From Paenibacillus sp. FSL K6-3182 (GTDB lineage: Bacteria > Bacillota > Bacilli > Paenibacillales > Paenibacillaceae), in contig NZ_CP150265.1 of assembly GCF_037976325.1 (NCBI RefSeq), forward strand, positions 4,707,501 through 4,771,500: a stretch of 64,000 bases of DNA, read 5' to 3'. Shown here in pieces: positions 5,537 to 24,325 of the stretch. Under the pieces are notes generated by a model. It worked only from the letters and a program-made list of their open reading frames with translations, did no database searches and was not told the DNA's origin. How positions within the stretch are numbered: position 1 is the first letter of the stretch; each line of letters begins with the position of its first letter. The position numbers and the translations under genes were made by a program.

Positions 5537-7672
5537 TTATTTCCGTAAACGCAGCGTTGTTATCGCAACGGTTGATGTTTTGAAGCCCGGCATTTTGCAA
5601 TGGGGATCCAGCTCGGGACTAGTTGCCTTATTCACGTTCTGCACACCGCCCCAGTGCATGGGTACAAATACGGTATCCTCCCTAATCTTATCGGTGATTC
5701 TGCTTCGAACGTTGAAACTGCCTCTGCGTGAAGTCACCTCCACCCATTCGCCATCCTCAACTCGAAGCTTTTGAGCAGTTTTCGGATGAATTTCAATATA
5801 GTTTTCGATATTTCGTGCAGCTAAAGACGGACTTTTACGTGTTTGAACACCCGTCAAGTAGTGAGACAGTACTCTTCCGTTTGTCATCGTTAGCGGATAT
5901 TTTTCGCTAGGTATCTCCTCAGGAAGACGGCTGGCCACTGGCATAAAGATCGCTTTTCCATCCGAATGTGCAAAGGCATCAGTAAACATCATGCCTTGAT
6001 TTCCATCCTCCTCGGTAGAGGTGCATGGCCAATAGATGCCGCCTTCCCGCCGCAACCGATCATAAGTAATACCATAGTAATCCGCTAACCCGCCACGGCT
6101 TGCAAGTCGCAGCTCCTCAAAGATTTGTTCGGCAGATTGGAAGGAGAAATATCTCTTCTTGCCCAATTCTTCGGCTATTTGGCACAAAATAGACCAGTCA
6201 TGCCTTGTCTCACCTGGCGAAGCGATCGTAGATTCTCTTAAAAGCACTCGGCCTTCCAGATTAGTCAAGGTACCGTCATTCTCTAAGTACGCCGTGACCG
6301 GCAATACAATATCGGCTAATTTAGCCGTCTCTGACAAAAACATGTCCGCTACCACTAAAAAATCTAAGTTTTGTAATCCTTTCTCGACTAAATTAGCATT
6401 TGGATTTGATACGATTGGATTAGAGCCCATCACGAACAGTGAACGAATAACGCGCTGATGAACAAGCTCCATCATTTCATACGCGGACACACCCTTTCGC
6501 GGCAGCTCAGTAGGATCAATTCCCCACACGCCAGCCACATATGAGCGGTCCTGCTCGTCTTCTATATTCCGGTACCCTGGCAATTGATCGCTTTTTTGTC
6601 CATGTTCTCTTCCGCCCTGCCCATTGCCCTGTCCGGTAACGGCGCCGTAGCCGCATCCAGATTTGCCGACTTTTCCGGTAGCAAGTACGAGGTTCAAAAA
6701 GTTTCTTACTCCTACATGGCCGTCAGTCTGTTGTTCAACACCTCTCGCAGTGAAAATAATGCCGGTTTCCGCGCGTCCATACGCCATCGCCGCTTTTTGA
6801 ATAGCAGCTACCTTTAAGCCCGTTAAATCGGCCACTTCTTCCAGCTGAATGCCGGATAGATGATCCTTTAATTCAGCAAATCCATTGGTTCTTCTCGAAA
6901 TGAACGTTTCATCTATCAGCTTCTCATCCAGCAGCACCTTCAGCAATCCATTAACGAGTGCAGCATCTGTACCGGGCTTAAGCTGTAAATGGATGTCGGC
7001 AATCGCTGCCGTTGCCGTAACTCTCGGATCAATAACGATGATGATGGCTCCATTTTCTTTTGCTTTTGTGAAATAAGGCATCAATGTGGGCTGACATTCG
7101 GCTATATTCGTTCCTGCCAAAATAATGCACCGAGCAAGCGGAATATCGGATAATCGACAGGTCAGTCCTCGATCGATACCGAAGGTTTTGTTGCCAGCAG
7201 ACGCTGCAGCAGACATGCAAAATCGACCGTTATAGTCGATATACTTTGTTCCGAGCGCAACTCTGGCGAACTTCCCGAGCAAGTAGGCGCTCTCGTTAGT
7301 CAGCGACCCACCTCCATATACGCCAAGGGAATCAGGGCCATACTCCTTGGCGATGGCTTGGAATCTGCTGCTAATGGTGCTTAATGCTTCCTCCCATGAT
7401 GCAGAGACAAGCTGACCATCCTTCCTTACTAATGGCTGAAGCAGACGCTCTGTACTAGTTGCATGCTGATGTGCATTCATGCCTTTCACGCATAGACGTC
7501 CTTCCGAAGCAGCATTAGCAATTCCTTCAATCACATACGAAGGCCTGCTTGAGCCTAGAACAGGCAGTTCTTTCGTTATGCGCATCTTGCATTGCACACT
7601 GCAAAACGGACATTGCGTATCCATGACGAAGCCTGAATCCTTGCTCATATGAATACCTAACGATTGCTGCAT
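5537..7672 (-). CDS. nasC: Assimilatory nitrate reductase, catalytic molybdenum subunit
   Basis: This 711-residue bis-MGD molybdoenzyme reduces nitrate to nitrite in the cytoplasm. An N-terminal [4Fe-4S] site is formed by Cys21, Cys24, Cys28 and Cys61 (CPFCSVQC and RLCVKG). The molybdopterin oxidoreductase core follows (about 70-470), then the dinucleotide-binding C-terminal domain (about 590-700, NGRVLSHYLTG). There is no Tat signal, in line with an assimilatory cytosolic enzyme. The length matches Bacillus NasC. It overlaps the end of nasB by 16 bp, indicating translational coupling. It is the last gene of the moeA-nasB-nasC transcript. Confidence 0.95.
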   Translation of the reverse strand: MQQSLGIHMSKDSGFVMDTQCPFCSVQCKMRITKELPVLGSSRPSYVIEGIANAASEGRLCVKGMNAHQHATSTERLLQPLVRKDGQLVSASWEEALSTISSRFQAIAKEYGPDSLGVYGGGSLTNESAYLLGKFARVALGTKYIDYNGRFCMSAAASAGNKTFGIDRGLTCRLSDIPLARCIILAGTNIAECQPTLMPYFTKAKENGAIIIVIDPRVTATAAIADIHLQLKPGTDAALVNGLLKVLLDEKLIDETFISRRTNGFAELKDHLSGIQLEEVADLTGLKVAAIQKAAMAYGRAETGIIFTARGVEQQTDGHVGVRNFLNLVLATGKVGKSGCGYGAVTGQGNGQGGREHGQKSDQLPGYRNIEDEQDRSYVAGVWGIDPTELPRKGVSAYEMMELVHQRVIRSLFVMGSNPIVSNPNANLVEKGLQNLDFLVVADMFLSETAKLADIVLPVTAYLENDGTLTNLEGRVLLRESTIASPGETRHDWSILCQIAEELGKKRYFSFQSAEQIFEELRLASRGGLADYYGITYDRLRREGGIYWPCTSTEEDGNQGMMFTDAFAHSDGKAIFMPVASRLPEEIPSEKYPLTMTNGRVLSHYLTGVQTRKSPSLAARNIENYIEIHPKTAQKLRVEDGEWVEVTSRRGSFNVRSRITDKIREDTVFVPMHWGGVQNVNKATSPELDPHCKMPGFKTSTVAITTLRLRK

Positions 7673-9807
7673 TTGCCCTCACCAAGTCCTTTCATCCTTT
7701 GTTGCGCTGCGGCAGCTAACTGTGCGCGGCCGTTAAGCTCTACCTGGCAGCGGCTATCGAGAATGATTTCTCTAATATCGATGATGCCTGCTCTCTCCAC
7801 CCATTTCCACATCCGCTCGCCAAATTCGGCATTCTCCCGGTAAAGCTGGAGGAGTGCTGCTGACAATGCCAATGCTTGCATATTTGACTCTGCTACAGCG
7901 ATAAGTTGCCCTTGCTTAACGGGATGCTCTGCATGCCCTCCAGCATAAATTTCCCACCCTGCTGGCGCTCCTGTAATTCCGATATCATGAACAAGTATCC
8001 CAACCGGATATTGAATGCTGGACGTAATGGCTGCCTTTACTGGTGCTGGGAAAAGTAAGCTTGCGCAGCAGCTTTGCAGCTCACTCCTAAGGGAAACCGA
8101 ATCAAACTCTGCATGGAGACCACTTATTAAATCTGGATTTGTAGGAGCTGTGTCTACATTGAAGCTGCATTCAGCTGTGATATTTCTGTCACGAATTGTA
8201 GTCTCTGGATGATAAAGCTCTAAATAATATTGTAGGGCAGATGAGCAAACGTTGCAGCCTGATAGACTTTTCCAGCCTAATGTTGTTTTTAATTCATGAA
8301 TAGTAGACGTCTGATTGGCAGCAACATATTGTTTCAGCATCTCGTGACTGGTATCGGTGCAGCTGCAAATAGGTGGAACCGCTGCTTCCAAAGCACCTTT
8401 GCCATGTTGAAGCGAATAGTGGACGATGGCTGCGACGATGGGACGGCAGCCTCCGCAGGAACTTGAAGCTTTCGTACGGTCTCGAACCTGTTCGAGCGTT
8501 TGCAGTCCATCTTCAATTACAGCGCACATGATAGCAGATTTGTTTACTGCATTACAGGCGCAGACTGTCTCACGCTCTGGCATATTAGCAGCTAGTTCAT
8601 CGTTTGCACTGCTGCCTCCCACACTCGGAGGAGCAATAAGCTCCGCAACAGCTGCCCTTCTCTTCACTAAGCCAAGCAAGGTTGTTCCTTCGGCCGTATC
8701 GCCAAACAATATAGCTCCGCGAACCGTACCTTCTTTCATTGTCACTTTTTTATATGTTCCACGAATGCCATCAAACTGCTGAATTGCTGTCTCTGCTTCT
8801 TCCGGACGAATTTCACCAACTGAAAAAACCTCGACCCCCGAAACCTTGAGCTGTGCGTAAGGTACCGAGCCCAAGTAGGGCTCTGAAATATGTCCGCAAA
8901 TGCTTTTGGCCAGCACCTTACCCTGCTCATATAACGGTGCAACTAATCCATATGCGACGCCGCGATGCTCCGCGCATTCTCCAACAGCATAAATATAGGT
9001 CTTGCTCGTTCGCATGTGATCGTCCACGATGATCGCTCTATTGGTATCGATGCCGCTCTTTTGGGCTAGCTCGACGTTTGGACGGATTCCTACGGAAATG
9101 ACGATCAAATCTGCTTCTAATGAACTGCCGTTCGTAAAGCGTATGCCTTTGGCGCGATTTAGTCCGGTAATGCTTTCCGTTTCCCTGCTCAGCCAGAATC
9201 GCATGCCCTGCTCTTCCAATTCTTTGCGAAGCATGTCGGATGACATACGATCGAGCTGACGATTCATTAAATAAGGTGCATTGTGAATGACATCTGTTTC
9301 CATGCCGAGATTTAACAAACCTCGTGCAGCTTCAAGCCCTAGTAAGCCACCGCCGATAACGGCAGCTTTTTTATATTTTTTTGCGTATTCGATCATCGTC
9401 TTGCAATCATCAATGTTACGGAACGATATGACACCAGATTTATGAACTCCTGCTATGGGCGGTATAAAGGCTGAAGAGCCGGTTGCTATAATGAGATGAT
9501 CATAATCGGCTCGAATGCCGGATAAGGTCGTTACATATTGTGAATCCGAATGAATATGAGCGACGGTCTCGCCTGTATAAAGATGAATTCCCCGTTCCTC
9601 ATACCAAGACCAATCATTAATGACGATGCTGTCAATAGAAGAGTCTCCTTGAAGCACCTTTGATAATAAAATACGGTTATAGTTCGGATGCTGCTCATTG
9701 CCAAATACCGTAATTCGGAATTTATTTGGCGCAAGCTTGATGATTTCATCGACACATTTCATACCTGCCATTCCATTTCCTATAACGACTAGCTTCTCTC
9801 TACTCAT
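7657..9807 (-). CDS. nasB: Assimilatory nitrate reductase electron transfer subunit (FAD, two [2Fe-2S])
   Basis: This 716-residue flavoprotein passes NAD(P)H electrons to NasC. An N-terminal FAD-binding GNGMAG (about 10-15) and an NAD-binding GGGLLGLEAA (about 151-160) define the pyridine nucleotide-disulfide reductase domain. Two BFD-like [2Fe-2S] domains follow, with VCACNAV...SCGGC and ICSCTD...GCNVC. The last 150 residues look like the tail of a nitrite/sulfite reductase ferredoxin-like half (GWEIYAGG, LLQLYRENA, RMWKWVERAGI) but lack the four siroheme/[4Fe-4S] cysteines of NasD. The ATG at 9807 lies 27 bp downstream of moeA. It is paralogous to the N-terminal part of NasD in this same window. 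Confidence 0.93.
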   Translation of the reverse strand: MSREKLVVIGNGMAGMKCVDEIIKLAPNKFRITVFGNEQHPNYNRILLSKVLQGDSSIDSIVINDWSWYEERGIHLYTGETVAHIHSDSQYVTTLSGIRADYDHLIIATGSSAFIPPIAGVHKSGVISFRNIDDCKTMIEYAKKYKKAAVIGGGLLGLEAARGLLNLGMETDVIHNAPYLMNRQLDRMSSDMLRKELEEQGMRFWLSRETESITGLNRAKGIRFTNGSSLEADLIVISVGIRPNVELAQKSGIDTNRAIIVDDHMRTSKTYIYAVGECAEHRGVAYGLVAPLYEQGKVLAKSICGHISEPYLGSVPYAQLKVSGVEVFSVGEIRPEEAETAIQQFDGIRGTYKKVTMKEGTVRGAILFGDTAEGTTLLGLVKRRAAVAELIAPPSVGGSSANDELAANMPERETVCACNAVNKSAIMCAVIEDGLQTLEQVRDRTKASSSCGGCRPIVAAIVHYSLQHGKGALEAAVPPICSCTDTSHEMLKQYVAANQTSTIHELKTTLGWKSLSGCNVCSSALQYYLELYHPETTIRDRNITAECSFNVDTAPTNPDLISGLHAEFDSVSLRSELQSCCASLLFPAPVKAAITSSIQYPVGILVHDIGITGAPAGWEIYAGGHAEHPVKQGQLIAVAESNMQALALSAALLQLYRENAEFGERMWKWVERAGIIDIREIILDSRCQVELNGRAQLAAAAQQRMKGLGEGKCSNR

Positions 9808-9834: not shown

Positions 9835-11100
9835 CTAGATTGTTAATGAAACAAAGCGAACTTCTTGCCCAGCTGAAGCGCCGGCCCCTCCGGCTGGTAT
9901 TTGTACGATAGCATTGGCTCTAGCGAAGGCAGCAACATTACCGGACTTATCATGACGCAGCGGCTCTACCATCCATTCCTTCTCCGAGCGATAGACAAAT
10001 GCTCTCGCATATCTTGGATAAGGGGATGGTTTGTCTATGGCATCGATTAGACGCCCTTCCATCCACTCGGACCGAAAATCATTTCTTCCGACAGCCTTTA
10101 ATATTGTGGGACGAAGCAGCAGCTCGATACCTGAGAAGCATGCAGATGGATTCCCGGATAAGCATATGAGCAGCTTAGATCCAAAGCGATAGGCAGATGT
10201 AGGTGTTCCCGGCCGCATGACAACTTTAGTAAACAAAGGTATACCGCCGATGCTTTCCGCTGCCAGCTTTACGAAGTCGTAATCACCAACCGATACACCT
10301 CCTGTAGTTACGATCATTTCTGATTGCTCTAGCGCCGCCTTAAGTGCGTTTTCTATCGTTTTCCGGCAATCGGGTATAGGCCTCTGACGAATGACCGCGG
10401 CTCCAAGCTCCCTAAGCCGAGCGCTTACCATGAAGCTGTTCGCGTCAAAAATTTTTCCGGATTGCAAGCTGTCGCCTGGCACAAGCAATTCATCCCCAAC
10501 CGGAATAATCGTAACGAGAGGTTTTTTATATACCTGTACTTCTGTTTGCCCAAAAGAAGCTAAAATGGCGATTTCTTTCGATTTGATAGCCGTTCCACGG
10601 TATAGCACCTTCATCCCATTTAGGACATCCTCGCCCTTCTCGGCAATGTGTTGCCCTTTTGGGTAAGCACGATCAATTTGAATGGATGAAAAACCTCGCA
10701 GGTCCATTCGTTCGCGTGCTGCTTCCTGCACGACAATCGCATCATAGCCAGCAGGCACGGGAGCACCGGTGAAAATACGAACCGCAGTCATCATTTCTGA
10801 CTCCATATCGTACATATGCTCTGATTGACCCGACCGAATTTCCCCTTTAACCTGTAATAACACCGGCCTTTCCTTGCTTGCACCTCCCGACGAAGCTGCG
10901 TAAATGGCGTATCCATCCATTGCGGCTCGGCGGAAAGGCGGCAAGGAGAATGGGCCTTCAAAATCATGAGCAAGTACTCTGGATATACAATCTTCTAACG
11001 ATACCGTTTCACATATCGGCTCCTTCATTTCTCTTGTCAATTTCATTAAAGCAATTGATACGGATGCCGTAAGCGGTTGAATTGGATTTAGGACCGACAT
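9835..11100 (-). CDS. moeA: Molybdopterin molybdenumtransferase MoeA
   Basis: This 421-residue cytosolic enzyme inserts molybdate into adenylylated molybdopterin, the last step of molybdenum cofactor synthesis. Landmarks are the N-terminal PFRRAAMDGYA motif, the FTGAPVPAGYDAIVVQE region, and the MoeA/MogA core TTGGVSVGDYDF with RPGTP and CLSGNPSACF. I place the start at the ATG at 11100, preceded by a GGAGGG site 7 nt upstream. Longer frames to 11193 run through the leader terminator. As first gene of the nas transcript it supplies cofactor to NasC. It is controlled by the ANTAR leader upstream. Confidence 0.93.
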   Translation of the reverse strand: MSVLNPIQPLTASVSIALMKLTREMKEPICETVSLEDCISRVLAHDFEGPFSLPPFRRAAMDGYAIYAASSGGASKERPVLLQVKGEIRSGQSEHMYDMESEMMTAVRIFTGAPVPAGYDAIVVQEAARERMDLRGFSSIQIDRAYPKGQHIAEKGEDVLNGMKVLYRGTAIKSKEIAILASFGQTEVQVYKKPLVTIIPVGDELLVPGDSLQSGKIFDANSFMVSARLRELGAAVIRQRPIPDCRKTIENALKAALEQSEMIVTTGGVSVGDYDFVKLAAESIGGIPLFTKVVMRPGTPTSAYRFGSKLLICLSGNPSACFSGIELLLRPTILKAVGRNDFRSEWMEGRLIDAIDKPSPYPRYARAFVYRSEKEWMVEPLRHDKSGNVAAFARANAIVQIPAGGAGASAGQEVRFVSLTI

Positions 11101-11139: not shown

Positions 11140-11170
11140 AAAAAGCCCTTTCCCGCGTCTGGGAAAAGGC
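11140..11170 (-). terminator. Leader terminator of the moeA-nasB-nasC operon
   Basis: On the minus strand GCCTTTTCCC and GGGAAAGGGC form a 10-bp stem followed by TTTTT, 40 nt upstream of moeA. Its first three bases are the 3' side of the second ANTAR hairpin, so the two folds exclude each other. Confidence 0.88.
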
Positions 11171-11210
11171 ATCATTGCCGCAAGAGTTAGCACGCCACTG
11201 TGCTGTACTC
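11168..11210 (-). promoter_or_regulatory. ANTAR-type antitermination RNA motif, nas leader
   Basis: On the minus strand hairpin P1 (GAGT-ac-AGCAC, loop AGTGGC, GTGCT-a-ACTC; 11184-11210) is followed by P2 (GGC, loop AATGAT, GCC; 11168-11179). Both hexaloops have A at position 1 and G at position 4, the known ANTAR recognition signature. P2 overlaps the 5' arm of the terminator, so binding by an ANTAR protein should allow read-through into moeA-nasB-nasC. Confidence 0.82.
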
Positions 11211-11224
11211 GTTCTATAATATAT

Positions 11225-11264
11225 AGATTAGTTCATGTTAATTTACATGTCAACATATATAACG
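11225..11264 (-). promoter_or_regulatory. nas operon promoter with GlnR/TnrA-like box
   Basis: On the minus strand a TTGACA -35 and a weaker TAATCT -10 are 17 bp apart. The -35 is the right half of CGTTA-N7-TGACA (11248-11264), one mismatch from the GlnR/TnrA consensus TGTNA-N7-TNACA. Transcription would start near 11217, immediately before the ANTAR hairpins. Confidence 0.72.
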
Positions 11265-11297
11265 TAACCAGAATCATTTTACCGAAAAATATTTATA

Positions 11298-11337
11298 TGT
11301 AATGTATATTGACATAAATATTACGCCGACCTATAAT
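11298..11337 (+). promoter_or_regulatory. narK promoter with exact GlnR/TnrA box
   Basis: TTGACA and TATAAT are separated by 17 bp, a consensus sigma-A promoter. The box TGTAA-N7-TGACA (11298-11314) matches TGTNA-N7-TNACA exactly and contains the -35. A start near 11344 gives a leader of about 145 nt. Confidence 0.85.
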
Positions 11338-11378
11338 TCGAGTTGGGGTTACAAAGTTTGTGATCCAATGCATACAAG

Positions 11379-11416
11379 AGGTCGCACAATGATGTGCTGC
11401 CTATGGCAATGAAGCC
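11379..11416 (+). promoter_or_regulatory. ANTAR-type antitermination RNA motif, narK leader
   Basis: P1 (11379-11402) is AGGTCGCAC, loop AATGAT, GTGCTGCCT, with one mismatch. P2 (11405-11416) is GGC, loop AATGAA, GCC. Both loops carry A1 and G4. The 3' side of P2 is part of the following terminator stem. Confidence 0.85.
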
Positions 11417-11455
11417 GCATTTCGTTCCTTAATAAGGACGGATTGCGGCTTTTTT
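11412..11455 (+). terminator. Leader terminator upstream of narK
   Basis: AAGCCGCA and TGCGGCTT, with an inner CCTT/AAGG stem, are followed by TTTTT. It lies 33 nt upstream of the narK start and overlaps ANTAR hairpin P2. Confidence 0.88.
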
Positions 11456-11487
11456 AGTTTATACCATTAGAAAAGGGAGAGATTGGG

Positions 11488-12729
11488 ATGGAGAGAAAAG
11501 GATTTTGGCAAAGCGGGCACAAACCTACCTTATTTAGTGCATTTCTTTATTTTGACATGAGTTTTATGATTTGGGTGCTTATTGGTCCTCTCAGCGTCAT
11601 TATTGCGGCCGATTATCCGATGGACCCTGTTCAAAAAGCAAACCTCGTAGCTCTTCCTATATTAGGAGGTTCTATTTTAAGATTAGTGTTAGGTTTCATG
11701 ACCGATTATATCGGCCCCAAACGAACAGCTCAGTTCGGAATGCTCTTTACTCTTATTCCATTAATAATGGGCTGGAAATTCGTGCATTCCTTGGATCAGC
11801 TCTATATCGTAGCCCTTCTGCTCGGCGTTGCTGGCGCCTCATTTGCTGCAGCCTTGCCGCTTGCCAGCCAGTGGTATTCCAAGGAGCATCAAGGACTTGC
11901 AATGGGGATAGCTGGGGCTGGAAATAGCGGCACAGTCATTTCTACCTTGTTTGCTAACCGCTTGGCGCAGCATTACGGCAGCTGGGAAATGGTTTTTGGA
12001 CTGGCTCTCATTCCGATCATAATCGTCTTTATTATCTTCACGATCTTTGCCAAAAATAGTCCGAACCGTCCTGCGCCTAAGAAGCTATCACAATATGCAC
12101 AAGTTTTAAAACAAGGTGATGCATGGGTGTTCTGTGCTTTCTACTGCGTAACCTTTGGCGGATTCGTCGGACTCTCCAACTATTTGACCATCTTCTTCAA
12201 CACACAATATGGATTATCGCCAGTCAGAGCCGCTGATTTCACAACCTTCTGCGTCATTGCAGGCAGTTTCTTTAGACCCGTCGGCGGATATCTTTCAGAC
12301 CGGATTGGCGGCGCAAGGATGCTCACTATACTTTACGGCGGCGCAGGTTTGATGCTTGCTGCAGTAGCATCATTGCCCACACTGCCTGTTGTCATTACTT
12401 TACTTTTCATCGGAATGATGTGTCTCGGCGCAGGAAACGGTTCTGTATTCCAGCTTGTACCGCAGCGCTTTGGCAGCGAACTAGGCCTCATGACAGGTAT
12501 TATCGGGGCTGCTGGCGGCTTAGGCGGGTATGCGCTCCCTCTCATTCTCGGAAATCTTTATCAATCTACCGGCTCATATACTTCCGGCTTCTTGATCCTC
12601 AGCTTTGTGACGCTGGCATCTCTTATTTTGTTAACGGTCATGCAATCGAAATGGAAACATAAATGGATGGCTAAAGGCGGTAAAGCCCGTCTAGACGTTA
12701 TCACAGATGCTTCTCAAGTTAATGTTTAA
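11488..12729 (+). CDS. nasA: Nitrate/nitrite transporter, NarK/NasA family (MFS)
   Basis: This 413-residue major facilitator with about 12 hydrophobic helices imports nitrate for assimilation. The two nitrate-signature glycine/asparagine motifs are visible: AGAGNSGTVIST (about 145-156) and CLGAGNGSVFQLVPQ (about 311-325). The length is close to Bacillus NasA (about 420). The ATG at 11488 has a GGGAGAG site. It is a single-gene transcript with a GlnR-type promoter, an ANTAR leader and its own terminator. The NarK/NasA type imports nitrate or exchanges nitrate and nitrite; the position in an assimilatory cluster favours import. Confidence 0.93.
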   Translation: MERKGFWQSGHKPTLFSAFLYFDMSFMIWVLIGPLSVIIAADYPMDPVQKANLVALPILGGSILRLVLGFMTDYIGPKRTAQFGMLFTLIPLIMGWKFVHSLDQLYIVALLLGVAGASFAAALPLASQWYSKEHQGLAMGIAGAGNSGTVISTLFANRLAQHYGSWEMVFGLALIPIIIVFIIFTIFAKNSPNRPAPKKLSQYAQVLKQGDAWVFCAFYCVTFGGFVGLSNYLTIFFNTQYGLSPVRAADFTTFCVIAGSFFRPVGGYLSDRIGGARMLTILYGGAGLMLAAVASLPTLPVVITLLFIGMMCLGAGNGSVFQLVPQRFGSELGLMTGIIGAAGGLGGYALPLILGNLYQSTGSYTSGFLILSFVTLASLILLTVMQSKWKHKWMAKGGKARLDVITDASQVNV

Positions 12730-12850
12730 TATGGAATTAATTGATTAGTTCAAGCAAAAACGCCTTCGGCGTCCTAAAACGCTGAAGTAGCTTTGACGGT
12801 GAAATATAAGATAAGTATGAGAAAATGATACACTTTCTTATATCCGAACC

Positions 12851-12896
12851 AAATACCCTTAGATTAAGCTGTTTGCTTAATCCAAGGGTATTTTTT
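12851..12896 (+). terminator. Intrinsic terminator after narK/nasA
   Basis: AAATACCCTT-a-GATTAAG pairs with CTTAATC-c-AAGGGTATTT and is followed by a T-run. A small ACGCC-ttc-GGCGT hairpin lies at about 12760. Nothing else is seen in 12730-13009. Confidence 0.88.
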
Positions 12897-13009
12897 CGTC
12901 ATTTAAAGAGTTCTTTATGTACAGCCGTTTCGGAGTTTGAAGCAGCTCGCCATCTCCTCAGTACAGTAATTATTACGCAATCGATCCGATCGCTAATTCC
13001 GTTAGACCC

Positions 13010-14050
13010 TCATAGAATGGCAATGCCGCTACCGCGCATCGCGCCTTGCCATTTGCTATAAAGCTCCCATGGAGCACCTGTATCAAGCAAATGCTTACAT
13101 GTATAAATCCCTTCTTCTATAGAGTCCACCTTCCCTGCGATCTGCAGTCGTACCGCCCCATTTAAAAGCACCTGGTTGACGAAGGCAATATGTCCTTCCC
13201 CTTGCAGGATAGCTTCCGTTATACGAATTTGCTCGGCTGGAGTCCAATCCGCGTCAGGGATAGGAGTCTCTAATCCATACGTGCCGGGATCGATAATTTG
13301 AAGACTAGATTCACCATTCTCGACGATATACGTACGAGTCGGACGCTCGATGAACAGATCCTCAGATCCTTCCACCCCTTGTACAATGAGTGCTTTTCTA
13401 TACCGTAAATTAGTGGCCAATTGAGCCATTCTTGCAAAGACTGTATTATGATAAACGCCGAATACCAAATAAGGGGAATGGGAGTAATCGATTAGCTTCT
13501 CCGCCGTGTTGAGCACCGTTCGCATGCCAAGCTCTAATCGAATCGAACGCAATTGCTTCAGTGGTGGGCACCATTGCTCAGCTGGAACATAAAGCACACC
13601 CGTATCCATCGCTGCTTTTAAAATCTGCTCACGTGGAACAAGCTCCGCATTTATTCCTAATTCTAAAAGTAAATCGTGCAGCGTTATCCCCCACTTTGGA
13701 GGTAACGACGCTGTTCCATGGAGAGTGACCGGAAGTCCAGCCGCTGTAATCAGAAAGGCCGTCGCAAACGTACTAAAGAACGACTTCTTCCGCCCGTCAT
13801 ATGGCCCAGCACAATCTAGTCCTTGCTGCAGAGAAGTTCGATAAGCATGTTTACGACAGACAGACACGAACGCTTCAAGCTCTTCAACACTCTCCATCTT
13901 CATTCGTTCAGCTATAAAAAATGCACCGATTTGTGCTGGGGTAGCTTTCAAATCTAGAATGGCATTCGCTGCTCCCAGCGCCTCTTCGTAACTGAGATCG
14001 CGGGCGCCCCTCTTACCTCTGGCAACTTCCTTTAATAGATTCGTAATCAT
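13010..14050 (-). CDS. TrpD2-like protein (anthranilate phosphoribosyltransferase family, YbiB type)
   Basis: This 346-residue protein has the glycosyltransferase family 3 architecture: an N-terminal helical domain (about 1-70, LSYEEALGAANAILDLKATPAQIGAFFIAERMK) and a large alpha/beta domain. The PRPP-binding GTGGD motif of true TrpD is replaced by AGPYDGRKKS, and the usual HGNRS is HGTAS. It is therefore of the TrpD2/YbiB class, whose members have been reported to bind nucleic acid and lack known transferase activity. The ATG at 14050 follows an AAGGAG site, 12 bp after the ANTAR regulator stop, so the two are surely co-transcribed. No other tryptophan gene is near, which argues against a role in tryptophan synthesis. 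Confidence 0.82.
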   Translation of the reverse strand: MITNLLKEVARGKRGARDLSYEEALGAANAILDLKATPAQIGAFFIAERMKMESVEELEAFVSVCRKHAYRTSLQQGLDCAGPYDGRKKSFFSTFATAFLITAAGLPVTLHGTASLPPKWGITLHDLLLELGINAELVPREQILKAAMDTGVLYVPAEQWCPPLKQLRSIRLELGMRTVLNTAEKLIDYSHSPYLVFGVYHNTVFARMAQLATNLRYRKALIVQGVEGSEDLFIERPTRTYIVENGESSLQIIDPGTYGLETPIPDADWTPAEQIRITEAILQGEGHIAFVNQVLLNGAVRLQIAGKVDSIEEGIYTCKHLLDTGAPWELYSKWQGAMRGSGIAIL

Positions 14051-14062
14051 CGTATGGCTCCT

Positions 14063-14677
14063 TTATTTTGAATCTTGAAGGATTTGATAAACCTTAACAA
14101 TTGACGTTGCGACGTCAACCATACGCTTGCGTTCATTCATCGCTTGCTTACGAAGCAAATCGTATGCTTCAGCTTCGGAAATATTTTTAATTTTGCACAA
14201 GATTCCCTTTGCCATATCAACCCACTTCCGTTCCTCAAGCCGGCTCTCCAGCTGTTTACGTTCATTCTGCCATTGCTGCCTCAAGAAATATTGTTTGGAT
14301 GCGAAATGAAGTGCCCAGTGAAGTTCTTGCTCACTCATTGAAGCTGTCAAAATCCCGTCAATCGGCACTTCATCCTCGCAAAAAGCTGCGGATAAAGAAG
14401 CCATCGAGGCACTGCACCACCAGAGCATGGGCAAAGACCTCTGCTTCAGAAGAACCTCACCCCAAGTTTTAGTGTCATTCAATGGTAAGTGTAAAATAAT
14501 TGCATCTGCGCTGCTTAAGTGTTTTCCAGCCTTTTTCGCGTCATTTATGCATACGACATGATAACCAAAGGTTGTAAGCCTATATTTTAGCGTTTGATTT
14601 TCAGGAATTAGTTCCATATAAGAAGCTGCTTCTGCTCCCGTTGTCACAGTACGATCCACCACTAACAAAGAACGCAA
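14063..14677 (-). CDS. ANTAR-domain transcription antiterminator with pseudo-receiver (NasR-like)
   Basis: This 204-residue regulator probably binds the three two-hairpin leaders in this cluster and blocks their terminators. The C-terminal ANTAR domain (about 140-195) shows LESRLEERKWVDMAKGIL, then SEAEAYDLLRKQAMNERKRM. It is preceded by a probable coiled coil. The N-terminal 120 residues follow a receiver-like strand pattern (SLLVVD, ADAIILHLP, LPMLWW, DGILTAS), but the expected phospho-acceptor Asp and the conserved Lys are absent, as in AmiR-type pseudo-receivers. It has no NIT sensor domain. I choose the TTG at 14677 because AGGAGGGAG lies 9 nt upstream; the longer frame to 14752 would translate that site. 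Confidence 0.88.
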   Translation of the reverse strand: MRSLLVVDRTVTTGAEAASYMELIPENQTLKYRLTTFGYHVVCINDAKKAGKHLSSADAIILHLPLNDTKTWGEVLLKQRSLPMLWWCSASMASLSAAFCEDEVPIDGILTASMSEQELHWALHFASKQYFLRQQWQNERKQLESRLEERKWVDMAKGILCKIKNISEAEAYDLLRKQAMNERKRMVDVATSIVKVYQILQDSK

Positions 14678-14795
14678 ATAGAAGCACTCCCTCCTATTAG
14701 ACTTTAGAAAAGTCTCAACACCAATCAATATCATTGTTACTATATATAACACAAAAACCTCTTTTTTGTCGATAATCAGATTTTTATTAATTTGA

Positions 14796-14836
14796 TGTTA
14801 TATATATTGACATTTAGTGCTGTGTCATTGTATATT
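14796..14836 (+). promoter_or_regulatory. nasD promoter with exact GlnR/TnrA box
   Basis: The box TGTTA-N7-TGACA (14796-14812) matches the GlnR/TnrA consensus and contains a TTGACA -35. TATATT follows after 18 bp. The architecture is the same as at the other two nas promoters. The divergent ANTAR gene lies on the other side of this 320-bp gap; its own promoter is not clear. Confidence 0.82.
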
Positions 14837-14861
14837 TACGCTATTAGAAACCAAACATCCT

Positions 14862-14906
14862 CGAATACAATGGTGTATTCGTTTGAAGCGGCAAAGAAGC
14901 CTGCTT
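14862..14906 (+). promoter_or_regulatory. ANTAR-type antitermination RNA motif, nasDE leader
   Basis: P1 (14862-14881) is a perfect 7-bp stem CGAATAC, loop AATGGT, GTATTCG. P2 (14886-14906) is AAGCGGC, loop AAAGAA, GCC-t-GCTT with a bulged T. Both hexaloops have A1 and G4. The 3' side of P2 is the 5' arm of the terminator. Confidence 0.88.
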
Positions 14907-14965
14907 TCGTGATCTAGGGAGACGTACATCCTTCCTTGAACATGAAGCAGGCTTTATTTATTTTC
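14897..14965 (+). terminator. Leader terminator upstream of nasD
   Basis: AAGCCTGCTT and AAGCAGGCTT form a 10-bp stem around a 38-nt loop and are followed by the T-rich TATTTATTTT. It lies about 35 nt upstream of the nasD start codon. Confidence 0.83.
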
Positions 14966-14997: not shown

Positions 14998-17436
14998 ATG
15001 GCTGTTTCAAAAAAATTAGTACTTATCGGAAATGGTATGGCGGGTGTCAGAACAATTGAGCATCTTCTCAAGATTGCCCCGGAGCGCTACGACATTACAA
15101 TTTTTGGTTCCGAGCCTCATCCCAATTACAACCGCATTATGTTATCCTCAGTCCTTGCCGGAGGAGCGGATATGAATGAAATCGTCATTAATGACTGGGA
15201 ATGGTACAAAGAAAATAACATTAAACTGCATACTGGACATAAGGTTACAAACATTGATACAAAACGTAAAAAGATTACCTCTCACTTAGGCATTGAAGTG
15301 GAATACGATGCGGTTATTATCGCAACTGGCTCCAATCCATTTATGCTGCCACTGCCCGGCGCTGACAAGGAAGGCGTCATCGGCTTTCGAGACATTAATG
15401 ATTGCGAAGCGATGATTGATGCATCCAAAAATTATAGGAAAGCAGTCGTGATCGGTGGCGGTTTGCTCGGTCTTGAAGCCGCTCGCGGGCTTCTTCATCT
15501 AGGAATGGAAGTAAACGTTGTTCATATTCATCCCTATTTAATGGAACGACAATTGGATGAAGCAGCATCTAAGATGTTGCAACGTGAACTAGAAGCACAG
15601 GGCATGCAGTTTCTTTTGAAGAAAAGCACTGCTTCAATTAAAGGTAAACGACGCGCTTCCGGGCTAACCTTTACCGATGGCACTGAGGTTGATGGTGATT
15701 TGGTGGTTATGGCAGTAGGAATCAGGCCAAACATCGAGCTGGCTAGAGCCAGTGGCATTGAAGTTAATCGTGGTATCGTTGTCAATGATTTTATGCAAAC
15801 CAATATTCCTGGTATTTACGCTGTTGGGGAATGCGCTGAGCACCGCGGCATTACCTATGGATTGGTAGCTCCGCTATACGAGCAAGGGGCTGTACTAGCC
15901 AAGCATTTGGCAAACGTCGAAACGACAGGCTATATGGGATCAGTCACATCCACCAAGCTCAAGGTATCAGGCGTTGATGTGTTCTCAGCAGGACGTTTCA
16001 GTGATGCTCCTGGTACACGCGCGCTAAAGTTTCAAGACGATTTGGCAGGTACGTATAAGAAAATTGTCATTCAAGACGGAATGCTGGTCGGAGCAGTACT
16101 CTTCGGTGACATATCAGATGGCGCGGAATTTTTTGCTTCTATTAAGAACGAAGTATCTATCACAGGACGCGAGAAGGAGCTGTTGCTCGGCATATCCTCT
16201 GATCTTATGGGGCAGTCCTCGGGCAATAACAGGCTTGAAGCCATGGCTGATGATGAAATCATCTGCGGTTGTAACGGTGTCTCAAAAGGAATGATCGCCG
16301 AAGCAATTACAACAAAAGGCTGTACTACCGTCGGCGCCATTAAATCCTGCACGAAAGCTTCCGCTTCCTGCGGCGGTTGTAAGGCTTTAGTTGAAGGCCT
16401 ACTTAACTTATATGCTGGCGATGCTATTGGCGAACCTGTAAAGGAAGGTATATGCGGCTGCACAACGCTTAGCCGTGATGAAATTGTTTCAGAAATGACT
16501 CGGATGCGTCTAATGAGTACCAAAGAGGTTATGAATGTGCTCGAATGGCATAATCCAGAAGGCTGCACGAAGTGTCGCCCTGCACTTAACTATTATCTAG
16601 GCATGTTATATCCCGAGGAATATGTCGATGAAAAGGAATCACGCTTTACGAATGAACGATACCATGCGAACATTCAGAAGGATGGCACATATTCGGTCGT
16701 ACCACGCATTTATGGTGGCGTAACGTCTCCTGCAGACCTAAAGAAAATTGCAGAGGTCGCTGAGAAATTTGAAGTTCCTTTAGTTAAATTCACTGGAGGA
16801 CAAAGGCTCGATCTACTTGGGGTCAAAAAAGAGGATCTTCCAAAAATATGGGAAGAGCTCGATATGCCATCCGGTCACGCATATGGCAAAACACTGCGTA
16901 CCGTGAAGACATGTGTCGGATCCACCTTTTGCCGATTCGGCACGCAGGATGCTATGGGTATGGGCATTCGATTGGAGAAAGCATTCGAGCGTTTGACGGC
17001 ACCTGCCAAAGTAAAACTGGCGGTATCCGGTTGTCCACGTAACTGCGCGGAAGCTACAATCAAGGATGTTGGTATCATTGCTATCGACGGAGGCTGGGAA
17101 ATTCATATCGCCGGGAACGGAGGCGTGAAAGTAAGAGCTACTGATCTACTCTGCATCGTTAAAACTGAGGATGAAGTTATGGAATGGTCATCTGCTTTTT
17201 TACAATATTACCGTGAAAACGCAACGTGGAACGAGCGTACCGCACACTGGGTGGAGCGTATAGGCCTTGCTCCCATTAAGAAAGCGCTCGAGAACCGTGA
17301 AGACCGCCTCGCTCTTGTGGAACGTATTCAGAAAACGCTCAGCTTAACGACCGACCCTTGGAAACAAATCGTCGAGAATGATAACTTACGTAAAAATTTC
17401 GAGCAATTACCTGGCGCGCAGCCGGTACAAATGTAG
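14998..17436 (+). CDS. nasD: NAD(P)H-dependent assimilatory nitrite reductase, large subunit
   Basis: This 812-residue cytosolic siroheme enzyme reduces nitrite to ammonium. Domains in order are FAD-binding (GNGMAG), NAD-binding (GGGLLGLEAA), two BFD-like [2Fe-2S] sites (IICGCNG...SCGGC and GICGCTT...GCTKC), the nitrite/sulfite reductase ferredoxin-like half (about 560-625) and the siroheme domain. The [4Fe-4S]-siroheme ligands are Cys639, Cys645, Cys679 and Cys683 (CVGSTFC, CPRNC). The ATG at 14998 has a GGAGAGG site. nasE follows after 12 bp. Expression is predicted to need release of the GlnR-type box and ANTAR antitermination. Confidence 0.96.
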   Translation: MAVSKKLVLIGNGMAGVRTIEHLLKIAPERYDITIFGSEPHPNYNRIMLSSVLAGGADMNEIVINDWEWYKENNIKLHTGHKVTNIDTKRKKITSHLGIEVEYDAVIIATGSNPFMLPLPGADKEGVIGFRDINDCEAMIDASKNYRKAVVIGGGLLGLEAARGLLHLGMEVNVVHIHPYLMERQLDEAASKMLQRELEAQGMQFLLKKSTASIKGKRRASGLTFTDGTEVDGDLVVMAVGIRPNIELARASGIEVNRGIVVNDFMQTNIPGIYAVGECAEHRGITYGLVAPLYEQGAVLAKHLANVETTGYMGSVTSTKLKVSGVDVFSAGRFSDAPGTRALKFQDDLAGTYKKIVIQDGMLVGAVLFGDISDGAEFFASIKNEVSITGREKELLLGISSDLMGQSSGNNRLEAMADDEIICGCNGVSKGMIAEAITTKGCTTVGAIKSCTKASASCGGCKALVEGLLNLYAGDAIGEPVKEGICGCTTLSRDEIVSEMTRMRLMSTKEVMNVLEWHNPEGCTKCRPALNYYLGMLYPEEYVDEKESRFTNERYHANIQKDGTYSVVPRIYGGVTSPADLKKIAEVAEKFEVPLVKFTGGQRLDLLGVKKEDLPKIWEELDMPSGHAYGKTLRTVKTCVGSTFCRFGTQDAMGMGIRLEKAFERLTAPAKVKLAVSGCPRNCAEATIKDVGIIAIDGGWEIHIAGNGGVKVRATDLLCIVKTEDEVMEWSSAFLQYYRENATWNERTAHWVERIGLAPIKKALENREDRLALVERIQKTLSLTTDPWKQIVENDNLRKNFEQLPGAQPVQM

Positions 17437-17448
17437 GAGGATTTACCT

Positions 17449-17763
17449 ATGACAACGAAGCTATTGGTAGCTAACCTTTCCGACATTGATGTGAAAGGCT
17501 CACGTAGAATTAAAGTCAAAGAATTAGAAATCGCGATGTTCCGTCTGACAGACGGAAGTGTACTTGCCGTAGAGAACAGCTGCCCTCATAAAGGCGGTTT
17601 ACTGTCAGAGGGTATGGTTTGTGGTTCAACCGTCCATTGTCCGCTACACGATTGGAAGATTGATCTTAAGAGCGGCAATGCACAAGAGCCTGATGACGGT
17701 TGTATTAAAACCTTTGAAACAGAAATCGACCACAAAAGCGGCTCCATTTATATAAAGATATAA
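17449..17763 (+). CDS. nasE: Nitrite reductase small subunit, Rieske type
   Basis: This 104-residue protein is the NirD/NasE partner of NasD. The Rieske [2Fe-2S] ligands are Cys45-Pro-His47 and Cys64-Pro-Leu-His67, in CPHKGG and HCPLHDW. NirD homologues often keep only a Rieske-like fold; here all four ligands are present. The ATG at 17449 has a GTAGGAGG site and lies 12 bp after nasD. Confidence 0.95.
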   Translation: MTTKLLVANLSDIDVKGSRRIKVKELEIAMFRLTDGSVLAVENSCPHKGGLLSEGMVCGSTVHCPLHDWKIDLKSGNAQEPDDGCIKTFETEIDHKSGSIYIKI

Positions 17764-17776
17764 GGTGGAATGATGT

Positions 17777-17959
17777 ATGTCGTATGTAAAGCCTACCGAA
17801 GTACTGAATGCCATGGTCGAAGCCGGAATAGCAAAAGCTACTTTAAGAGCCTTTCAAATGGTGGTTTGCGGTTATCTCGCGGAAGCGATCTGTAACAAAG
17901 ACGCATACGTTCCTTCAGAAAAATCGGTTTTGAATACCGCGGAAATCAGTAGCGTATGA
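17777..17959 (+). pseudogene. Truncated formate/nitrite transporter (FNT/NirC-like) remnant, 60 aa
   Basis: The 60-codon frame starts MSYVKPTEVLNAMVEAG and continues KATLRAFQMVVCGYLAEA. This resembles the cytosolic N-terminus and start of the first helix of FNT channels, which are normally about 260 residues. After about 38 residues the similarity stops, and about 22 unrelated or C-terminal residues lead to the stop. The frame has its own GGTGG site and its TGA overlaps the cobA ATG (ATGA). It looks like an internally deleted nirC that now serves mainly as a coupling cistron for cobA. A genuine small membrane-associated protein is the alternative. Confidence 0.6.
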
Positions 17960-18732
17960 AGATAAACACGAATGGTATCGTCTATATCGTCGGAGCAGGC
18001 CCTGGAGATCCTGAACTTATTACTGTCAAAGCAATGCGCCGTATTCAGATCGCTGATCTTATTTTGTACGATCGGCTTGTCAATAAGGAATTGCTTGACT
18101 ATGCCGGACCCGATGCCGAACTAATCTACTGCGGCAAGTCACCAGGCATTCATGCGATGCCGCAGAATATTATAAATGAGGCACTAATTAAACATGCTTT
18201 GGAAGGAAAAAAGGTCGTCCGCCTAAAGGGCGGAGACCCGTTCGTCTTCGGACGCGGCGCCGAAGAAGCACTCGAGCTTGCCGCAAAGGGAATTCCTTAC
18301 GAGATCGTGCCAGGCATTACATCTGCGATCGGCGCAGCCGCCGCTGCAGGTATACCTGTAACACATCGTGACTACGCAGCCTCCTTCGCTTGCGTGACCG
18401 GCAGCCGATGTCATAATGACAAATCGCCAATCCGATGGGATTTACTTGCGCATGGCGTCGATACGCTTGCCATTTATATGGGAGTTAACCAGTTGCCATT
18501 CATTAGAGAAGAGCTGCTGAAACACGGAAAAGCAACTACGACTTCTGTGGCTATCATCGAACGAGGAACGACAAAGGATCAGCGAACGATTATCGGAACC
18601 ATTGCAAATATTCATACACTCGCCGTCTCTATGAATTTGATTAGCCCAGCTCTAATTATTATCGGCGAGGTCGTCCGTGTTAGGGAACATCTTCTGCATG
18701 CCGAGCAACAAGCAAATATATTAATTAGGTAA
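17956..18732 (+). CDS. cobA: Uroporphyrinogen-III C-methyltransferase (siroheme synthesis)
   Basis: This 258-residue SAM-dependent enzyme makes precorrin-2 for siroheme, the NasD cofactor. Family motifs are GAGPGDPELITVKA near the N-terminus, ILYDRLVN, VVRLKGGDPFVFGRGAEEA and VPGITSAIGAAAAAGIPVTHR. Only the methyltransferase domain is present, equivalent to the N-terminal half of Bacillus NasF; no dehydrogenase/chelatase domain is fused. The ATG at 17956 overlaps the preceding 60-aa frame by 4 bp. It is the last gene of the nasDE transcript. Confidence 0.95.
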   Translation: MKINTNGIVYIVGAGPGDPELITVKAMRRIQIADLILYDRLVNKELLDYAGPDAELIYCGKSPGIHAMPQNIINEALIKHALEGKKVVRLKGGDPFVFGRGAEEALELAAKGIPYEIVPGITSAIGAAAAAGIPVTHRDYAASFACVTGSRCHNDKSPIRWDLLAHGVDTLAIYMGVNQLPFIREELLKHGKATTTSVAIIERGTTKDQRTIIGTIANIHTLAVSMNLISPALIIIGEVVRVREHLLHAEQQANILIR

Positions 18733-22719: not shown

Positions 22720-24325
22720 TGTAAGAACACACATGCGCTTTCCAGCTCTCTATCGCTGATAACCAAACTGCCGCTGTATTCTGTAAGCACATATAGGTGC
22801 TTACAGACTCTCAACAATGTAACTTTTACGGCTGTAAGAACACATATGCGCTTACAACTCTCTTTCGTAGGTAACCAGCCTGTTAAGTTGCTCAATAAGC
22901 ACCTATTTGTGCTTACAAGCACTCAGAAACGCCACTTTTACCGCTGTAAGAACACATATGTGCTTAAAGCTCTCTTTCGTAGGTAACCAGCCTGTTAAGT
23001 TGCTCAATAAGCACCTATTTGTGCTTACAGACACTCATGAACGTGACTTTCAACGCTGTAAGAACACATATGCGCTTACAGCATTCTCTCGTAGGTAACT
23101 AGCCTGTTAAGCTGCTCAATAAGCACCTATATGTGCTTACAAGCACTCAGAAACGCCACTTTTACCGCTGTAAGAACACATATGTGCTTAAAGCTCTCTT
23201 TCGTAGGTAACCAGCCTGTTAAGTTGCTCAATAAGCACCTATTGGTGCTTACAGACACTCATGAACGTGACTTTCAACGCTGTAAGAACACATATGCGCT
23301 TACAGCATTCTCTCGTAGGTAACCAGCCTGTTAAGCTGCTCAATAAGCACCTATTTGTGCTTACAAGCACTCTGAAACGCTACTTTTACCGCCGCAAGAA
23401 CACATATGCGCTTACAGCATTCTTTCGTAGGAACCTGCCTCTTAAGTTGCTCAATAAGAACTTATATGTGCTTACAGGCACTCAGAAACGACACTTTTAC
23501 CGCTGTAAGAACACATATGCGCTTACAGCATTCTTTCGTAGGTAACCAGCCTGTTAAGTTGCTCAATAAGCACCTATTGGTGCTTACAGACACTCATGAA
23601 CGTGACTTTCAACGCTGTAAGAACACATATGCGCTTACAGCATTCTCTCGTAGGTAACTAGCCTGTTAAGCTGCTCAATAAGCACCTATATGTGCTTACA
23701 AGCACTCAGAAACGCCACTTTTACCGCTGTAAGAACACATATGTGCTTAAAGCTCTCTTTCGTAGGTAACCAGCCTGTTAAGTTGCTCAATAAGCACCTA
23801 TTGGTGCTTACAGACACTCATGAACGTGACTTTCAACGCTGTAAGAACACATATGCGCTTACAGCATTCTTTCTAGGTAACCTGCCTCTTAAGTTGCTCA
23901 ATAAGAACTTATATGTGCTTACAGGCACTCAGAAACGACACTTTTACCGCTGTAAGAACACATATGCGCTTACAGCATTCTTTCGTAGGTAACCAGCCTG
24001 TTAAGTTGCTCAATAAGCACCTATTGGTGCTTACAGACACTCATGAACGTGACTTTCAACGCTGTAAGAACACATATGCGCTTACAACTCTCTTTCGTAG
24101 GCAACATGCCTGTTAAGTTGCTCAATAAGCACCTATTTGTGCTTACAAGCACTCAGAAACGCCACTTTTAACGCTGTAAGAACACATATGCGCTTACAGC
24201 ATTCTTTCGTAGGTAACCAGACTGTTAAGTTGCTCAATAAGCACCTATTTGTGCTTACAAGCACTCTGAAACGCCTCTTTTACCGCTGTAAGAACATATA
24301 AACTCTTACAGCTCACTTTCGCCAG
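22720..24325. repeat. 112-bp tandem repeat array with two palindromes per unit
   Basis: About 14 units with a strict 112-bp period (occasionally 111) fill the gap between the rhamnose operon terminator and the lut promoter. The motif GTAAGAACACATA recurs at 22834, 22946, 23058, 23170, 23282, 23505, 23617, 23729, 23841, 23952, 24064 and 24176, with degenerate copies at 22721, 23394 and 24288. Each unit has palindrome A (GTAAG...CTTAC around ACATATGCG) and palindrome B (TAAGCAC...GTGCTTA), 61 and 51 bp apart. Open frames of 60-100 codons in this area are artefacts: the period is not a multiple of three, so they change frame between copies. No cas genes or unique spacers are present. Confidence 0.93.

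Follow-up and report, generated by a model that had tools for sequence, protein, structure and literature searches.

Here, we describe a nitrate assimilation cluster of Paenibacillus sp. FSL K6-3182 and three RNA leaders within it, which very probably are transcription attenuators that are read through when the ANTAR protein encoded in the same cluster is active. The window, that is, the whole stretch of DNA that was analysed, comprises 64,000 nucleotides (contig NZ_CP150265.1, positions 4,707,501 to 4,771,500) and is held in a genome made up of a single contig of 7.56 Mb. The cluster spans 5.5–18.7 kb of the window. It opens with three minus-strand genes (nasC, a nasB-like gene and moeA), continues with narK on the plus strand and a minus-strand pair formed by a CnaT-like gene and the ANTAR gene, and closes with nasD, nasE and cobA, again on the plus strand (Table 1). 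The three leaders precede moeA-nasBC, narK and nasDE-cobA.

Architecture of the three leaders

Each leader contains two tandem hairpins, P1 and P2, whose six-nucleotide loops carry A at the first position (A1) and G at the fourth (G4). A first-pass annotation, made from the sequence alone, had quoted six such loops and had read the 3' arm of the second hairpin as the start of a terminator. All six hexaloops are present as quoted, and a scanner found that the P2 3' arm begins the 5' arm of a terminator in all three leaders. The scanner called for minimum stem lengths of 4 bp (P1) and 3 bp (P2), an A..G.. hexaloop in each hairpin, and a terminator beginning at the P2 3' arm. On both strands of the window it returned exactly three matches, namely the moeA, narK and nasD leaders. 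Dinucleotide shuffles of one strand gave 9 matches in 300, corresponding to about 0.06 expected for both strands versus the 3 seen. Nine other fixed-letter loop patterns gave 0–2 matches each in the real window. A search of the whole window against Rfam at an expectation value (E) of up to 1 returned only a preQ1 riboswitch, located elsewhere, and no match at the nas leaders.

The arrangement also agrees, as had been claimed, with the two-hairpin ANTAR recognition architecture of Ramesh et al. 2012 (PMC3369931), and the RNA leaders therefore belong to an already described kind. That paper describes the dual-hairpin architecture, regulons with several leaders and nitrogen genes among the targets. 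It places ANTAR matches before nitrate/nitrite transporter and nitrite reductase genes, and its main text does not name Paenibacillus.

When the full leaders were folded with RNAfold, P1 and the terminator formed in each case, with free energies of -29.8 (moeA), -36.7 (narK) and -38.9 kcal/mol (nasD) and z-scores relative to shuffles of -2.7, -5.4 and -4.8, respectively. When the leaders were truncated ahead of the terminator 3' arm, P1 and P2 formed instead. The z-scores of the truncated leaders were -1.6 (moeA), -1.1 (narK) and -3.1 (nasD), and only the nasD leader was clearly better than its shuffles.

Table 1. Features of the nitrate assimilation cluster, in window coordinates. Hairpins are written as arm-loop-arm.
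Feature	Position	Strand	Remarks
nasC, assimilatory nitrate reductase catalytic subunit	5537..7672	-	exceeds NF047855 cut-off
nasB-like reductase subunit	7657..9807	-	NirB model matched across N-terminal two thirds
moeA	9835..11100	-	ATG at 11100, GGAGGG upstream
moeA-nasBC leader	11145..11204	-	P1 AGCAC-AGTGGC-GTGCT 11204-11189; P2 GGC-AATGAT-GCC 11179-11168; overlapping terminator 11170-11145, then TTTTTCTGT
GlnR/TnrA-type box, one mismatch	11248..11264	-	ends in TTGACA upstream of moeA
GlnR/TnrA-type box, exact	11298..11314	+	ends in narK -35 TTGACA; TATAAT 11332-11337; promoter 12/12 consensus
narK leader	11384..11449	+	P1 GCAC-AATGAT-GTGC 11384-11397; P2 TGGC-AATGAA-GCCG 11404-11417; overlapping terminator 11414-11449, then TTTTTT
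narK/nasA-type nitrate/nitrite transporter of the major facilitator superfamily	11488..12729	+	297 bits, below cut-off 312
CnaT-like gene (TrpD / glycosyl transferase family 3)	13010..14050	-	starts 12 nt past ANTAR gene
ANTAR antiterminator gene	14063..14677	-	204 amino acids, TTG start picked via alignment with relatives
GlnR/TnrA-type box, exact	14735..14751	-	upstream of ANTAR gene
GlnR/TnrA-type box, exact	14796..14812	+	ends in nasD -35 TTGACA; TATATT 14831-14836; promoter 11/12
nasDE-cobA leader	14862..14952	+	P1 CGAATAC-AATGGT-GTATTCG 14862-14881; P2 GGC-AAAGAA-GCC 14890-14901; overlapping terminator 14899-14952, then TTTATTTAT
nasD, nitrite reductase large subunit	14998..17436	+	
nasE, nitrite reductase small subunit	17449..17763	+	
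cobA, uroporphyrinogen-III C-methyltransferase	17956..18732	+	

Conservation and genomic distribution

A search with the ANTAR protein gave 433 homologues at E up to 1e-3, and among the best 120 of these its nearest relatives are mostly from Paenibacillus. An alignment of 20 ANTAR homologues was used to find the loci of relatives, of which the best 80 of 232 were compared. In all 80 the CnaT-like gene directly follows the ANTAR gene on the same strand, and nasD was recognised at the opposite flank of the ANTAR gene in 79 (the exception is L039). The strict scanner placed an element beside the ANTAR gene in 54 of the 80 loci. A covariance model of the nasD type, R1, was built from 54 of the 57 minus-strand scanner matches with a GCC arm; by this model every one of the 80 loci has an element next to its ANTAR gene. 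R1 also recovered, at 27.7–33.5 bits, three nasB leaders that had been kept out of its rows. In the 26 loci missed by the scanner both loops have A1 and G4, and a terminator stem and its T-run can be made out by eye. The occurrence of A1 and G4 in every locus is thus made up of 54 loci found by a scanner that requires these letters and 26 found by a model that merely favours them. Likewise, the overlap of the P2 3' arm with the terminator was seen by scanner in 54 and by eye in the other 26. A covariance search with a two-hairpin model and an alignment with relatives, both suggested in the first-pass annotation, have therefore borne out its view: loops and overlapping terminators are kept. The models were built from relatives and are distinct from the published ANTAR model.

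P1 covaries among the relatives, with double-sided changes in five of its seven pairs; 98.2% of cells are paired, compared with 94.9% in shuffles and at most 47.6% when the alignment is slid. The narK and moeA leaders of related genomes have GCAC/GTGC in P1 instead of GAATAC/GTATTC; the closing pairs and the GGC/GCC P2 are unchanged. The mixed alignment has 100% of its cells paired, with a joint switch of the two outer P1 pairs.

R1 scored the narK and moeA leaders of the window at 16.8 and 16.7 bits, which is inseparable from noise at genome scale; a mixed model, R2, was therefore built. Its rows were 25 of 29 narK/moeA-type rows, 12 nasD leaders and one nasB leader; L129 (the window's own), L104 (shifted register), and L118 and L119 (longer linkers) were dropped. 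One row, L100, comes from a relative and has exactly the letters of the window's moeA stretch, so the recovery of the moeA leader by R2 is not independent; no row equals the narK or nasD stretch. In the 7.56-Mb genome R2 found three elements, at 44.7, 43.7 and 43.6 bits (E 2e-7 to 4e-7). The next match, at 19.1 bits and E 0.39, lies within an ATPase gene as read by eye. The search scored 150 of the 4311 first-look candidates, so that a fourth element of divergent sequence may have escaped it. The single ANTAR gene on which the first-pass annotation had relied is indeed the only one in the genome, and it lies inside the cluster. With one ANTAR gene and three elements, the simplest reading is one regulator, three leaders and one cluster.

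Co-occurrence was counted in 60 genomes, this one included, which are related to one another. An ANTAR gene scored above the cut-off in 43 genomes, a CnaT-like gene at 184 bits or more in 40 (a separate group below 130 bits was taken for TrpD), and an element at E up to 0.01 in 40. Elements occur in 40 of the 43 genomes with an ANTAR gene and in 0 of the 17 without (Fisher p 3e-12, kinship ignored). The corresponding counts for the CnaT-like gene are 37 of 43 and 3 of 17 (Fisher 1e-6, kinship ignored). In G006, which has no ANTAR gene, a weak match at E 0.036 was left uncounted. Extra weak matches in relatives were excluded as targets; that of G054 and some others lie away from recognised nas genes.

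The leaders are preceded by boxes resembling the GlnR/TnrA consensus TGTNAN7TNACA (PMC3412718). The moeA promoter has a poor -10 element, TAATCT, and was not listed by a promoter scan. The window contains four exact boxes, three of them in the nas cluster, and 20 boxes with at most one mismatch. Among the relatives, the 420 nt ahead of the ANTAR gene contain an exact box in 75 of 80 loci versus 0.8% of shuffles, and a box with at most one mismatch in 80 of 80 loci versus 19% of shuffles. In Paenibacillus polymyxa, the nasA, nasD1 and nasD2EF promoters are bound by GlnR when nitrogen is limiting, yet the nas genes are lower in the wild type than in a glnR mutant (PMC9948412). Given the predicted boxes and this binding, nitrogen control at the narK, nasD and moeA promoters, be it positive or negative, is likely.

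Several observations weigh against the reading of the leaders as ANTAR-responsive attenuators, some of them only if it is taken strictly. RNAfold closes A1 with U6 when possible, and as a result several hexaloops are drawn as four-base loops. A simple terminator scan (loops of 3–8, no mismatch) listed the moeA terminator and missed those of narK and nasD, whose stems are interrupted or whose loops are long. P2 is invariant across the relatives, so covariation lends it no separate support. Of five covariation measures computed on the mixed alignment, two do not rise above the shuffles (477/500). The Fisher p of 3e-12 overstates independence because the genomes are related, and the G054 match sits inside an opposite-strand frame and is probably due to chance, which makes 39 the better count. 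At E 0.01 an element is missing from three of the 43 ANTAR genomes. Two of these carry ANTAR genes of other types, a response regulator next to a PdtaS-like kinase in G041 and one at a locus that includes eutB in G052; the third, G037, does have an element at its own nas locus, but a weaker one of 20.3 bits. Finally, the moeA box has one mismatch, a stringency that 20 boxes in the window satisfy.

A separate observation concerns genome G012, in which two ANTAR elements stand in tandem about 104 nt apart on each of L218 (2307-2443) and L219 (267-403). L218 and L219 are short contigs or contig ends, and each pair is perhaps a doubled attenuator.

The ANTAR protein and its CnaT-like neighbour

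The window protein scores 69.6 bits with PF03861 (cut-off 27.3) and is thus a member of the ANTAR family. ANTAR is its only Pfam domain, so it is not a NasR-type fusion with NIT. The receiver domain PF00072, typical of the EutV-type phospho-receiver, found no match in any of 20 homologues at E up to 1; the N-terminus of the window protein is receiver-like and lacks the usual motifs. At the alignment position that we take for the phospho-acceptor, the 20 homologues have His (12), Asp (3), Gln (3) or Asn (2), and the window protein has His. Since no Pfam receiver is found and this position is mostly not Asp, control of the window protein by phosphorylation is unlikely. By analogy with AmiR and NasT, control by a partner or a ligand is more likely. 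An AlphaFold2 model shows an alpha/beta domain at the N-terminus along with a helical ANTAR part (mean predicted local distance difference test score 84.6, predicted template modelling (TM) score 0.68). The best matches among solved structures are EutV, then NasR, Rv1626 and AmiR by sequence profile, and EutV, Rv1626 and AmiR by fold, with modest TM-scores of 0.38–0.54.

Known sensor proteins were looked for as well. A genome search for the NIT domain gave no match, and the controls were likewise silent. NasS is absent beside the ANTAR gene, where the neighbour is TrpD-like in all 80 loci. Five proteins in the genome match PF13379, and the four examined match SsuA best (one above and three below the cut-off of that model); a distant NasS elsewhere in the genome is not formally excluded. 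No kinase gene was seen among the genes of the cluster.

The CnaT-like protein matches best, among NCBIfam models, PRK07394, at 168 bits versus an equivalog cut-off of 287; the trpD model gives 148 bits (cut-off 199). We take PRK07394 to be the CnaT family of cyanobacteria; its cut-off is passed by one of 14 control genomes. Named public relatives (best 120 of 312) are mostly called anthranilate phosphoribosyltransferase. TrpD is characterised by a GTGG-type phosphoribosyl pyrophosphate (PRPP) motif and by KHG. The TrpD of this genome has GTGGSG at the place where 17 of 18 aligned CnaT-like proteins have PYDGR and one has PYTGR; LH replaces KH in all 18, so that the TrpD motifs are not kept. 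Because of these replacements, the CnaT-like proteins form a conserved family distinct from the genome's TrpD. CnaT was expected to be limited to ANTAR genomes, which is ruled out by the 3 of 17 ANTAR-less genomes that carry it.

The motif WWC in the N-terminus of the ANTAR protein was considered as a possible signature of CnaT linkage. It is found in seven of seven CnaT-linked proteins and in the window protein. Among four ANTAR proteins without CnaT linkage it occurs in two (L194 and L195, not L188 and L197), and it is also found in an unrelated second ANTAR protein, L204. The latter (L204 6420-7640, genome G011) is divergent and adjoins a transglutaminase-like gene. In L197 (7734-10931, genome G043) the ANTAR domain is C-terminal on an open frame of 1065 amino acids that has no further Pfam match and adjoins a nasE-like gene.

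Compared with known systems, the cluster resembles the EutV-controlled eut leaders of Enterococcus faecalis (PMC3369931; 6wsh, 6ww6) in its dual A1/G4 hexaloop hairpins, the overlap of P2 with the terminator and the presence of several leaders per cluster. EutV, which is also the best match of the window protein by profile and fold, is activated via the kinase EutW; in contrast, the window protein is of a group without a Pfam receiver, and its cluster has no recognised kinase gene. With NasR and the nasF leader of Klebsiella it shares ANTAR antitermination of nitrate assimilation genes (predicted here), but NasR has its own NIT domain for nitrate sensing. NasS-NasT of Paracoccus denitrificans (PMC3795266) likewise involves a free-standing ANTAR protein serving a nas cluster. 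There, NasT is held by the nitrate-binding NasS, whereas the neighbour here is TrpD/CnaT-like. Cyanobacterial CnaT shares with the window gene the best model and the linkage to nitrate assimilation; the window gene falls short of that model's cut-off and is not a certified member. The input side looks like a variant: an ANTAR protein for which no receiver, NIT domain, NasS or kinase was recognised is combined with a CnaT-like operon partner and GlnR-type boxes.

Proposed mechanism and alternatives

Antitermination of the three leaders by the ANTAR protein is strongly supported by the sequence analysis. The computed support covers the RNA architecture, its conservation, the three genomic elements, the tracking of elements with ANTAR genes, and the boxes; from these we infer binding by the ANTAR protein, antitermination, the signal and the action of GlnR in this organism. 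By default, the nascent RNA would form the intrinsic terminator, which would halt transcription ahead of moeA-nasBC, narK and nasDE-cobA. The active ANTAR protein would bind both A..G.. loops and hold P2 closed. A closed P2 would keep its own 3' arm from the terminator, and RNA polymerase would read through. Nitrate uptake, nitrate and nitrite reduction, and cofactor steps would in this way be switched on together, in line with the co-ordinate switching at the RNA level that the first-pass annotation had suggested. Because GlnR/TnrA-type boxes lie at the promoters of the same genes, initiation is probably set by nitrogen status, to which the ANTAR step would add a second condition, most likely nitrate or nitrite.

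It could be argued that the leaders attenuate without any ANTAR protein, as plain constitutive terminators or a protein-free RNA switch, given that their terminators are stable on their own in RNAfold. This is very improbable: a plain terminator requires neither the conserved loops nor the conserved P1 pairing, the elements track ANTAR genes, and the loci L189, L190, L192 and L193, which carry CnaT at nitrate/nitrite genes and have no nas-type ANTAR gene, contain no element at E up to 1. Rfam, moreover, recognised no riboswitch in the window other than preQ1. A more serious alternative is that control lies mainly at initiation by GlnR/TnrA, with the ANTAR protein promoting read-through constitutively or to a minor extent and not acting as a nitrate switch. 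The exact boxes at the narK and nasD -35 elements, the one-mismatch box at moeA and the GlnR binding in P. polymyxa (PMC9948412) speak for it, and a nitrate response of the window protein is proposed by analogy. A dedicated ANTAR gene in the cluster together with three conserved attenuators nevertheless suggests a signal, and there are nitrate-responsive precedents in NasR and NasS-NasT (PMC3369931, PMC3795266). We regard this alternative as unlikely.

The least certain part of the model is the nitrate sensor. The CnaT-like protein is one candidate signalling partner, a tentative one. More speculative still is the proposal that in Paenibacillaceae and relatives the CnaT-like protein is a re-purposed protein of TrpD fold, in which PYDGR has replaced the PRPP motif, and that it gates the ANTAR protein in response to nitrate or a metabolite that it senses. 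This would be a third input route, distinct from a NIT domain, NasS or a kinase. It is quite possible, if short of probable, that the gene instead encodes an enzyme or accessory of nitrate metabolism, which is compatible with ANTAR-responsive leaders. Its co-directional placement just past the ANTAR gene in every locus compared argues against this. On the other hand, exceptions in both directions speak for an enzyme role: in G039, G046, G047 and G052, which have no nas-type ANTAR gene, a CnaT-like gene stands next to nasC or a nirA-type gene, and nas-linked ANTAR genes lack CnaT in G028, G051 and G055. CnaT-like genes adjoining nasC or a nirA-type nitrite reductase gene without a nas-type ANTAR gene were located at L189 14083-15138, L190 7974-9101 and L192 7912-9015.

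A literature search, not exhaustive, found no publication describing control of Paenibacillus nitrate genes by ANTAR, and the text of PMC9948412, on GlnR at related nas promoters, contains 0 occurrences of ANTAR or antitermination. With the leaders described here, Gram-positive nitrate assimilation would gain a specific switch at the RNA level, whose three targets form a small and apparently complete set. The promoter boxes, the CnaT-like gene after the ANTAR gene and the question of nitrate sensing go beyond the first-pass annotation. The findings make testable a possible AND gate of nitrogen control at the promoter and nitrate control at the leader, as well as the role of CnaT-like proteins. 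If the gating proposal is true, the CnaT family would be a portable nitrate-signalling module, acting through RNA antitermination in Firmicutes and promoter control in cyanobacteria.

Outside the cluster, the preQ1 riboswitch lies at 629-672 of the window on the minus strand (49.4 bits, above the gathering score), and a minisatellite array occupies 22784-24312, with a 112-bp unit in 13.7 copies and 86% matches.

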